Notes under the pieces: model-generated | Told to the model about the DNA's origin: nothing | The model's database searches: none | What the model saw: only the letters and a program-made list of their open reading frames with translations | Source of the DNA: Acidobacteriota bacterium | GTDB taxonomy: Bacteria > Acidobacteriota > Terriglobia > Terriglobales > Acidobacteriaceae | Length of the DNA: 64,000 bases | Direction of reading: 5' to 3' | NCBI GenBank assembly: GCA_003225055.1 | Contig: QIAU01000120.1 | Span: 1 to 64,000 of the forward strand | Shown here: in pieces, positions 5,375-63,758 of the stretch | How the letters are laid out: every line of letters begins with the position of its first letter | Numbering within the stretch: the first letter of the stretch is position 1 | Made by a program: the position numbers and the translations under genes

Positions 5375-5380
5375 TTGCAA

Positions 5381-5416
5381 CAGATTCTTCGCGGCTAAGC
5401 CGCTGGGAATGACAAG
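5381..5416 (+). repeat. Dispersed palindromic repeat, family A
   Basis: CAGATTCTTCG at the left end, GCGGCTAAGCCGC as a self-complementary centre, and GGGAATGACAAG at the right end. It lies within the operon between yceD and rpmF, so it will be transcribed and can form a hairpin in the mRNA. Confidence 0.65.
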
Positions 5417-60884: not shown

Positions 60885-61313
60885 TTACTCGCTGAGTGGA
60901 TTGACCACGCGCAAAGAGCCAAACTTCTGTCCTGCTGACAGATCTTCCGAATAGAGCCGACGGGCACCTGCGGTCTCAGCCGCCTGCAGAATCGGCGCAT
61001 CCCAGAAAGAAATCCGGTTGCCTGTTTCCAAGTCAAGCGCCTGGATCGCAGCCTCGGGACCGTTCAGAACCAGCTCCCAACTGAGGTAGTCCTGGAGGAG
61101 ACGACGCAATTCTTCGAGCGGCAAAGGTTGTGGCGCTCTTCGGCGCAAGCTGACACACAGTTCCTCTAACACCCGTGTACTAAGTATGCGAAGTATGCCG
61201 TTACCCTCATCCCAGATTTCTCCCAGTCGCTGCGCCCGCTCGTGCTTGGGTTCGGCGGAACGGTCGTGCGCGTAAACCAGGATACTCGGGTCGACCAAGC
61301 ATTTATCGCTCAC
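60885..61313 (-). CDS. VapC-type PIN domain toxin
   Basis: A 142-residue PIN nuclease. Expected acidic residues are visible: Asp8 (LVDPSILVYAHD), Glu50/51 (LEEL), Asp105 (FWDAPILQAA) and Glu123/Asp124 (YSEDLSAGQ). The usual Asn/Thr after the first Asp is replaced by Pro-Ser. VapC toxins cut tRNA or rRNA when freed from antitoxin. Its start overlaps the antitoxin gene by 11 nt. It is convergent with mutS2, only 8 nt apart. Confidence 0.88.
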   Translation of the reverse strand: MSDKCLVDPSILVYAHDRSAEPKHERAQRLGEIWDEGNGILRILSTRVLEELCVSLRRRAPQPLPLEELRRLLQDYLSWELVLNGPEAAIQALDLETGNRISFWDAPILQAAETAGARRLYSEDLSAGQKFGSLRVVNPLSE

Positions 61314-61545
61314 GGGGTTGGTCGGGCGAGCGCGGTGACTTCCAGTTCAGATCAAAACCTTCCCCTAGCCTGGCCAACGCTCGTCTCTTGGAGCGATCGT
61401 AGGCTTTGCGTTCGCGCACCATCCGCTCCAGCTTCGTAGCGAGCAGGGCGCTCACCGAAGTGCCTTCCGGCGCCGCCAGAATGCGCCCTTCACGGAGCAG
61501 TTCAACATCAAGCTTGAGTGTGATATTGGCTTTCAGGGTGCGCAA
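61303..61545 (-). CDS. VapB-type antitoxin
   Basis: An 80-residue protein. The N-terminus (TLKANITLKLDVELLREGRI, then AAPEGTSVSALLATKLERMV) fits a ribbon-helix-helix DNA-binding domain, and the basic C-terminal half (residues about 45-80) would wrap the toxin. It overlaps the PIN toxin gene by 11 nt, the usual toxin-antitoxin order with antitoxin first. It should repress its own promoter, in the 182-nt gap before dnaG, where I see no clear operator. Confidence 0.82.
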   Translation of the reverse strand: MRTLKANITLKLDVELLREGRILAAPEGTSVSALLATKLERMVRERKAYDRSKRRALARLGEGFDLNWKSPRSPDQPRER

Positions 61546-61757
61546 TTTGCGTGCTAACCGAGGTGACCGGTCAAGCAGGACCGCAACGGCCCCCCACCCT
61601 CCCTTGGCCTAGCGCTTGATTGCTCATGCTCACGGGCACGAGTTTCGTACCAGTTTCCCTCAGGGATTAACTACTTCTTCCGGAAATTCACAATTTCTTC
61701 ACAATAAACCTTGTCTGGCAGGCGTGGATGCACCACTCTGTATTTCAGAATCGAGGG

Positions 61758-63758
61758 ATGAGTGTCGCCATGAGCACCTCTGCCGACTTTAAAGAAACTC
61801 TTAAGCAACAGGCCGACATCGTTCGCATCGTGGGTGACTACGTCAAGCTGAGGAAGGCCGGGGCGCAGAATTATTCGGGGCTCTGCCCGTTTCATGGCGA
61901 GAAGACGCCCTCGTTCTCAGTTCATGCGACGCGCCAGTTCTATCACTGCTTCGGCTGTGGCGCTTCGGGTGACGTTTTCAGCTTTGTACAGAAGATTGAA
62001 AACATAACTTTCCCGGAAGCGGTGCGGCTGGTCGCGCAGAAGATGGGCGTAGCGCTTCCTAAAGTTGCTTACGGCAGCCCGGAGGAAGCTCGGGATGGCA
62101 AGCATCGCACGGCGCTGTTGGAAATCCAGGAAGCTGCCTGTGCTTTTTTTCAGGATTACCTGAACCGGCCGGAAGGGGCTAAGGCACGCGAGTATCTCCA
62201 AGGACGTGGCTTGGATGGCGAAACCATTGCTCGTTTCCGCATCGGCTTTGCCCCCGACTCGGGATTTGTGTTGCGGGATTACTTCAAGGGGAAGTTTGAC
62301 GACAATGTACTGCGGGAAAGCGGCCTGTTTTCCTGGAAGATGCCGGAAGAGAAAAGCAGGTCCCTCGACTCGGTCGGGCCGTCTGCGAGCGGAGAGCGCG
62401 CCTCCGCCCGGGACGACAAGGATAGAAGGGGAACAGCCGCGTCGCCCGAGTTTGCTGTGCAGGTCAAAGGACGAAAGACTTCAGACGTGCTCGCGATGTA
62501 CTCGAAATTTCGCAATCGGGTGATGTTTCCTATCCGCAACGAGAATGGCCGGGTTATCGCCTTCACCGGCCGGAGGCTGAGCGCGGACGAGAAAGCCGGG
62601 CCCAAGTACCTGAACTCTCCGGAGACTCCGATCTACTCCAAATCGCGTGTCTTGTTCAATCTCGACCACGCCAAGGAAGCCATTCGTATGTTGAGCTACG
62701 CCATCCTGGTGGAAGGCCAGATGGACTGCATCTCGGTGTTTGCCGCCGGACTTCACAATGTGATCGCCAGCTCCGGCACCGCCTTTACCGATGCCCAGGC
62801 TAAGTTGCTGGGCCGGTTCAGCAAGAACATCGTCGTAAATTTCGATCCTGATGCCGCGGGCGCCCATGCGACCGAACGAACAGTGGGCCTGCTCGTGGAA
62901 GAGGATTTCAATATCAAGGTGATGAGGCTGGAGCCTGGTTTTGATCCCGACCTGTTCATTCGCCGCAAAGGAAGAGACGCCTATGCCGAGGCTGTAGGCC
63001 ATTCCCAGCGCTACTTTGATTATCTGATCGAGCGGGCCCGCGCCCAGTTCCCGGTGCGAAGTGCAGAGGGCAAGGTAAAGGCGGTGAACTTCCTCTTGCC
63101 GCACATTCAGCGCATCCCGAGCCGGATTGTGCGCGATGAGCTCGCTCACGAGATCGCGCAAAAGCTGGGCATCGACTCGGCGGTGCTGCGGCAGGAACTT
63201 AGGCACCTCGCGGGCACGCGCTCGGCGGCCGCTGTCAAGGCTCCTGCGGAGGCGCAGGTGACCGATGCGGAGCGCATCCTGATTCGCGCCTTGGCTTCAG
63301 CCAGCGAAATGCGGGCAAGTGAAGAGCACCTCTCCGCTCGCGACGGTGCCGAGGAAGAATTCGATCCCGCCCGTCAGGCGCAGTTTGTGCTCCAGAGCGA
63401 GCACCTGCACGCCGGCTTAGCTAGCGAATCCCTGCTGGAAGGTCTTCTCCACTTGGGACCAGAAACAACCGAGGTTATGAAGTTGCCGCTCTCTGACGCT
63501 GACCGGCGCGTCTTGGCCTCCATCCTGATGCGCGAAGAAGAAGAGGAGCTCACTGCCGAGCAGCTGGAAGGCGCGATTCGCGCGCTGCGGCGGATGGGGC
63601 TACGTCGCAGGCTGGAGCAGGTCCAACGCGAGTTGCAGGCCGGCCGCAGCAAAGAGCCGGAGCAGTTGCAAGCCCTTCTGCAGGAGAAGGTCCGGCTCAA
63701 GCGGGCGCTGATGGACCCCGGCCTCTCTAGGGAGAGTCCGGCGGCTCGCCCGGCGTAA
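61758..63758 (+). CDS. dnaG: DNA primase DnaG with an in-frame insertion
   Basis: A 666-residue primase that makes RNA primers for replication. The CHC2 zinc-binding domain (CPFHGEKTPSF to FYHCFGCGASGD, residues about 38-70), the catalytic TOPRIM core (YAILVEGQMDCISVFAAG, NFDPDAAGAHATERT), and a C-terminal helicase-binding region are present. Between FSWKMPEEK and MYSKFRNRVMFPI there are about 45 residues (SRSLDSVGPSASGERASARD and following) that are not expected and are encoded by a family A-like repeat. ATGs at 61728, 61758 and 61770 are possible; 61758 lies close after GAGGG. rpoD often follows dnaG but lies past the window if present. Confidence 0.94.
   Translation: MSVAMSTSADFKETLKQQADIVRIVGDYVKLRKAGAQNYSGLCPFHGEKTPSFSVHATRQFYHCFGCGASGDVFSFVQKIENITFPEAVRLVAQKMGVALPKVAYGSPEEARDGKHRTALLEIQEAACAFFQDYLNRPEGAKAREYLQGRGLDGETIARFRIGFAPDSGFVLRDYFKGKFDDNVLRESGLFSWKMPEEKSRSLDSVGPSASGERASARDDKDRRGTAASPEFAVQVKGRKTSDVLAMYSKFRNRVMFPIRNENGRVIAFTGRRLSADEKAGPKYLNSPETPIYSKSRVLFNLDHAKEAIRMLSYAILVEGQMDCISVFAAGLHNVIASSGTAFTDAQAKLLGRFSKNIVVNFDPDAAGAHATERTVGLLVEEDFNIKVMRLEPGFDPDLFIRRKGRDAYAEAVGHSQRYFDYLIERARAQFPVRSAEGKVKAVNFLLPHIQRIPSRIVRDELAHEIAQKLGIDSAVLRQELRHLAGTRSAAAVKAPAEAQVTDAERILIRALASASEMRASEEHLSARDGAEEEFDPARQAQFVLQSEHLHAGLASESLLEGLLHLGPETTEVMKLPLSDADRRVLASILMREEEEELTAEQLEGAIRALRRMGLRRRLEQVQRELQAGRSKEPEQLQALLQEKVRLKRALMDPGLSRESPAARPA
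62359..62430. repeat. Intragenic family A-like repeat in dnaG
   Basis: CAGGTCCCTCGACTCGG at the left, GCGAGCGGAGAGCGCGCC in the centre, and CGCCCGGGACGACAAGG at the right. The ends correspond to CAGATTCCTCG and GGAATGACAAG of the intergenic copies with single-base changes. Translated in frame as Ser/Arg/Asp-rich residues. Confidence 0.6.

Follow-up and report, generated by a model that had tools for sequence, protein, structure and literature searches.

The DNA primase gene of this acidobacterium contains a copy of a dispersed REP-like repeat, which is read in frame within a loop of the protein that has been rebuilt repeatedly from unrelated repeats in a clade of related species. The window, by which we mean the whole analysed stretch of 64,000 nucleotides, belongs to an acidobacterial genome of 7.4 Mb (G000:C292). 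An initial annotation had proposed that the essential DnaG includes the in-frame translation of a dispersed intergenic repeat, and this is confirmed by the exact left end shared with other copies, by the existence of those copies in the genome, and by the open frame. The features concerned, together with the further copies of the family in the window, are the following.

61770..63758, + strand: dnaG, DNA primase (ORF list; Pfam DNAG_N, Toprim, Zn_ribbon_DnaG and DnaB_bind; DnaG structures matched at Z about 30)
62340..62498, + strand: hypervariable DnaG loop, 53 codons between SGLFSWK and YSKFRNR (alignment with relatives; AlphaFold2 pLDDT <50)
62350..62421, + strand: in-frame copy of the dispersed REP-like repeat (left 18 nt the same as in four other genomic copies; complete copies with left and right ends elsewhere)
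62355..62372, + strand: left conserved end AGCAGGTCCCTCGACTCG (repeat matching)
62386..62410, + strand: inner imperfect inverted repeat CGAGCGGAG / CTCCGCCCG, arms 62386-62394 and 62402-62410 (weak)
62406..62419, + strand: right conserved end GCCCGGGACGACAA, consensus GCTCRGRATGACAA (comparison with other copies)
5380..5415, + strand: further family copy, CAGATTCTTCGCGG...GGGAATGACAA (both-end search)
24310..24347, + strand: further family copy, first member of a close pair (both-end search)
24431..24460, + strand: further family copy, second member of that pair (both-end search)

The repeat in dnaG is laid out as AGCAGGTCCCTCGACTCG, a variable middle and CTCGGGATGACAAG, and its outer bounds are given by AGAAAAGCAGGTCCCTCGACTCG on the left and GCCCGGGACGACAAGG on the right. 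The segment 62350-62421 has no stop codon, is in frame with dnaG and interrupts the DNAG_N match in a Pfam search; an in-frame ATG at 61728 is a possible alternative start of the gene. The segment had earlier been placed at 62359-62430, between the zinc-binding part and TOPRIM. Its coordinates need to be shifted accordingly, whereas the placement between these two parts holds and corresponds, by structure comparison, to the N-terminal subdomain of the RNA-polymerase domain. Similarly, the loop is long, as supposed (53 residues, compared with 8-16 in short-loop relatives), but the repeat supplies only about 24 codons of it and does not account for the whole excess of some 45 residues formerly attributed to it. 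The AlphaFold2 model of the protein, which matches known DnaG structures at the Z score given above, has pLDDT <50 for residues 193-239, flanked by strands 186-188 and 242-244, and the solved primase of S. aureus (4e2k) has only about five residues at this position. From the model, the loop is inferred to be disordered and to project from the surface between two beta strands. Just upstream of dnaG, at 60885-61545 on the - strand, lie two small adjacent ORFs (a PIN-like one of 142 aa and one of 80 aa), which resemble a toxin-antitoxin pair of the VapBC type.

The copy in the window is partly decayed, as judged from its right end, which has two substitutions relative to the consensus (GCC..GACGAC for GCT..GATGAC), and from its fold, which is no better than that of shuffled sequences (z +0.67; whole loop, z +1.37). 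Its only inner inverted repeat is of 9 nt at 89% identity. The initial description of the element as palindromic needs correction to this extent: the copy in the window is not a strong palindrome.

The census of the repeat was made by pattern searches and on samples of DNA. In the genome carrying the window, a search for the 18-nt left core that allowed three mismatches finds 28 matches, against four for the reversed control, and five of the 28, the dnaG copy included, are exact; the exact right core GCTCRGGATGACAA occurs 14 times, with none for the controls. The genome-wide enrichment that the initial annotation anticipated is thus found, with complete copies bearing both ends spread over the genome, three of them within the window in addition to that in dnaG. 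Elements are about 30-90 nt in size and mostly intergenic. An Rfam search of the window gave no match. Contrary to what had been suggested, the family is not peculiar to this lineage, being present in 71 of the 79 related genomes searched (34/41 and 37/38), where control matches were almost nil. In G029, G035, G073, G065 and others, right cores form -/+ pairs with a spacing of about 46-130 nt. The core also occurs in direct tandem arrays of regular spacing (G012:C30:54603-54760, 36 bp; G065:C182:9530-9631, 44 bp; G073:C149:370-489, 53 bp). With the strict gapped pattern, a single match was found among viral contigs, at 7612-7650 of L224 (IMGVR_UViG_3300035696_000387).

A scatter of such insertions through many genes, of the kind known from Rickettsia, is not seen: in about 1.26 Mb of three genomes and 0.39 Mb of flanking DNA, no copy lies in the interior of a Pfam-recognised gene other than dnaG. 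The copies checked within ORFs elsewhere are terminal in the gene, fall outside its recognised domain or belong to ORFs that lack a Pfam match. As for how the repeat moves, Y1 transposases are abundant (42 matches to Y1_Tnp), and an enzyme of this IS200/RAYT type as the mobiliser is a guess; no RAYT link was found at the 12 Y1 loci examined, none of which is flanked by repeat copies, one weak left-end match excepted.

The evidence that sets dnaG apart comes from its relatives. A DnaG sequence was obtained for 58 of 61 genomes and for 80 named loci, most of these from Terriglobales, Candidatus Sulfotelmatobacter and subdivision-1 metagenome-assembled genomes (MAGs). The loop has 8-16 residues in many members of the family, whose genomes are near-complete and whose dnaG is intact, and 26-81 in most of one large clade, within which L144 has a loop of 11 residues. 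All 80 loci keep an open frame through the loop, and the DNA of many long loops is recognisably built of repeats. The fillers include the element found in the window, either in + orientation (as in CAGGTCCTTCGCTCCGCTCAGGATGACAAG, translated QVLRSAQDDK) or in - orientation (GTCATCCCGAGCGAAGGAGGAACGC..., translated SSRAKEER); other palindromes, namely GGGCACGACTTGAGTCGTGCC and GGTGCCCCGTCC...GGACGG...GGGCGGGGA; and arrays with a 7-nt period (GTCAGCC, AACGACC, CGAGCTC, CGGGCTT), often with the complementary array at the opposite end of the loop. Among these loops the element is read in three left-end frames, and a few long loops, such as those of L134 and L149, lack a clear repeat. Alignment with the relatives, which the initial annotation had put forward as a check, therefore reveals extra residues in them too; these, however, stem from different copies, different orientations and different families of repeat, so that the original idea is strengthened rather than refuted.

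Within the loop, 14% of the DNA is covered by strict 7-nt period arrays, as against 0.22% in the intergenic flank and none in the remaining dnaG; among periods from 4 to 12, only that of 7 is enriched there. The intergenic DNA of the relatives also contains such arrays at dispersed sites, some of them as long near-perfect hairpins. In G073, intergenic hairpins with arms of this period are found at L185 14960-15054, L186 4744-4829, and L188 1618-1706 and 11860-11951; the arms are complementary within one copy, while the heptamer changes between copies.

Several observations bear on whether the shared feature is the DNA or the peptide. Core peptides were picked by their amino acids only, and their Asp/Asn-Asp codons are GAT or AAT followed by GAC (T in 38 of 40, GAC in 39 of 40), whereas elsewhere in the same genes GAT and GAC are used about equally; core Ala is mostly GCT, against a background of 14%. 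The hairpin stem covaries inside coding copies, one pair being C:G in 23, T:A in 8 and crossed in none. Taken together, the codon bias of the core and the covariation of the stem indicate that it is DNA that is copied, rather than a protein motif that is conserved. A constraint on the product is nevertheless apparent in the frames that are used: of the 53 loops that offer a choice, 36 are read in the most hydrophilic of their open frames (18 expected), and the linkers contain no Cys and almost no Trp or Tyr.

Element ends (up to two mismatches) number 72 in 10.9 kb of loop DNA (6.6 per kb, counts that are not mutually independent, as loci share ancestry and loop DNA is itself largely repeats), 4 in 143 kb of the remaining dnaG (0.03 per kb) and 81 in 389 kb of flanks (0.2 per kb). 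For right ends the figures are about 3.6 per kb in the loop versus 0.33 per kb in intergenic DNA, a ratio of about ten. Loop length has an SD of 16.4 aa, and the other varying internal intervals of DnaG have an SD of 1.5 or less, except in one N-terminal interval, where a single outlier is apparently an artefact of start site or alignment. The notion that any flexible part of DnaG collects repeats is ruled out by the other low-confidence linkers, which are nearly constant in length.

The loop undergoes repeated turnover. On a DnaG tree built quickly without the loop, the element classes need about 30 label changes, an approximate count that includes losses; the minus orientation changes four times, the right-only and phase classes several times more, and the long or short state of the loop six times. 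Loops can be unrelated between sister species whose DnaG is 94-98% identical. L155 and L157, whose DnaG is 95.8% identical, have a 32-aa heptamer-hairpin loop and one of 13 aa, respectively; in the pairs L105/L112 (96.8%) and L100/L118 (97.7%), nearly identical flanks enclose loops that are unrelated; and L129 has an element and a CAATCAG array, of which L110 has neither. Errors of MAG assembly could affect single cases but would not preserve the frame throughout. In L090 and L091, the left part of the loop with its element is identical over about 90 nt, whereas the dnaG DNA that flanks it has clearly diverged; this suggests that exchange or conversion took place recently. The abundance of repeats alone does not drive insertion, as G020, G035 and G024 have 46-97 exact cores per genome, yet their loops measure about 9 aa. 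A constant match of the dnaG copy to the majority subtype of its genome was likewise considered and was not significant (permutation p about 0.07).

The explanation that we consider probable is that a permissive, disordered loop repeatedly captures mobile or hairpin repeats, which are filtered for open, hydrophilic frames. The loop of an ancestor would have become long, after which further insertions into it would have been nearly neutral, so that palindromic repeats and heptanucleotide hairpins could keep landing, or being copied, there. Those whose frame stayed open and hydrophilic would persist, and insertions elsewhere in dnaG, the rest of which presumably cannot accept them, would be lost. 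Some features are not predicted by pure tolerance itself, namely that element ends are more concentrated in the loop than in intergenic DNA and that nearly the whole clade keeps the loop long. Linker folding above that of controls, a dnaG subtype that does not clearly follow the genomic majority, and the lack of a transposase tied to the repeat at the 12 Y1 loci also count against capture.

The persistence of long loops across the clade makes selection for length a real rival, albeit one that we think doubtful: the DnaG of this clade may need a tether that is long, disordered and hydrophilic but of no particular sequence, whether for spacing, for contact with a partner or for condensation, and repeats would be handy raw material for it. 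Long loops are kept in nearly the whole clade, with six changes of state, length stays near 47 aa despite complete turnover of sequence, and the bias toward hydrophilic frames is strong. That bias, however, is equally expected from tolerance alone, the range of lengths is wide (11-81, the lower value being that of L144 inside the clade), and the short-loop members of the family have an intact dnaG. A more far-reaching form of this idea, and a distinctly speculative one, is that the loop is an actively maintained hypervariable segment, in which a clade-wide need for a tether is met by recruiting mobile hairpin repeats, so that selfish DNA supplies fast-evolving sequence to a replisome protein, possibly under pressure from phage or partner proteins.

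Compared with dnaG controls, the linkers have on average the better fold (39% versus 5% below z -2), which could mean a role for the RNA, and covariation is retained in coding copies. It is nevertheless very unlikely that the insert acts as DNA or RNA, through a hairpin in dnaG mRNA adjusting the expression of primase or the processing of the message: the copy in the window folds no better than shuffles, architecture, position and strand differ among species, the choice of frame indicates constraint at the level of protein, and covariation is explained if the copies are recently derived from a palindromic family. We find it very improbable that an enzyme targets a dnaG sequence as a site-specific hotspot; the tenfold density of right ends would fit, but unrelated kinds of repeat lie at varied positions in the loop, repeat-rich relatives with similar flanking sequence have empty 9-aa loops, and no dedicated transposase emerged from the 12 Y1 loci. 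The partial decay and poor fold of the window copy might recall a chance resemblance or an ordinary low-complexity Ser/Arg/Asp linker, an account that is scarcely credible given the exact 18-nt left end at four other genomic sites, the codon test and the intact copies in relatives, and that is refuted by the census of copies. Capture by a permissive loop remains the reading that we favor.

The closest precedents are the Rickettsia palindromic elements (RPEs), short palindromic repeats found in frame in genes for proteins, essential ones and replication genes among them, where the extra residues are tolerated (PMC3733652, PMC10969869). For R. conorii, RPEs of about 150 bp have been reported from 44 genes that are unrelated to one another (PMC10969869). 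The acidobacterial repeat is likewise inserted in frame in a functional protein gene, but it is smaller and mostly intergenic, and its only interior gene insertion found in the sampled DNA is that in dnaG, in one loop and in many species. Di Nocera et al. (2013) included RPE-4 and RPE-6 among the CGTC-tagged REPs, which are mostly intergenic, with some in frame in replication and repair genes, and which lie at about the same site in recB of two Xanthomonas species (PMC3733652). Their text mentions Acidobacteria once, and neither dnaG nor primase (PMC3733652). Compared by tag motif only, the acidobacterial repeat resembles the CGTC-tagged superfamily, RPE-4 and RPE-6 included, in its TGTC tag and AT-started stem (PMC3733652), a resemblance that leaves the independence proposed in the initial annotation unsupported. 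After the tag come AT and an imperfect stem (CTTGTCATYCCGAG...GGRATCTG). On the reverse strand, the right end is CTTGTCATYCC (CTTGTCGTCCC in the window copy), which places the repeat within the tag definition of CGTC, TGTC or CCTC at one end, and head-to-head pairs are formed in both groups. The tail, on the other hand, is CTG (the complement of CAG) instead of CCA, and many copies have long variable middles in place of a 4-5 nt loop. Simple copies fit the CGTC-REP stem (8-9 bp, AT start, 4-5 nt loop), and the window copy has GT, a middle of >30 nt and a poor fold.

The REPs associated with RAYTs (GTAG REPs) are also small palindromes, often in inverted pairs, from which the present repeat differs in not lying beside the Y1 loci examined, bar the weak match noted above. 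Arrays of the heptanucleotide TAACTGA are dispersed, mainly intergenically, in Beggiatoaceae, Cyanobacteria and Bacteroidetes (PMC4679880). The acidobacterial arrays share the period, dispersal and intergenic location, but their heptamer varies per copy, two complementary arms often give long hairpins, and stop-free versions occur in dnaG. A literature search for DnaG insertions in Acidobacteria found no report.

In-frame palindromic repeats as such are known, as RPEs and CGTC-tagged REPs; what is new is the recurrent capture of several repeat families at the same site of an essential gene across a clade. Known examples are usually single cases scattered over genes, whereas here a single loop has received several kinds of repeat in both orientations. 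For annotators, a note of caution follows in that DnaG alignments in this clade include repeat-derived residues. The filled, short and replaced states of the loop form a natural series for how non-coding repeats become protein, and the same series asks what a protein loop accepts, and whether the primase tolerates a long disordered insert or uses it. In these soil Acidobacteria, the loop documents in nature how selfish DNA has been turned into protein at one place.
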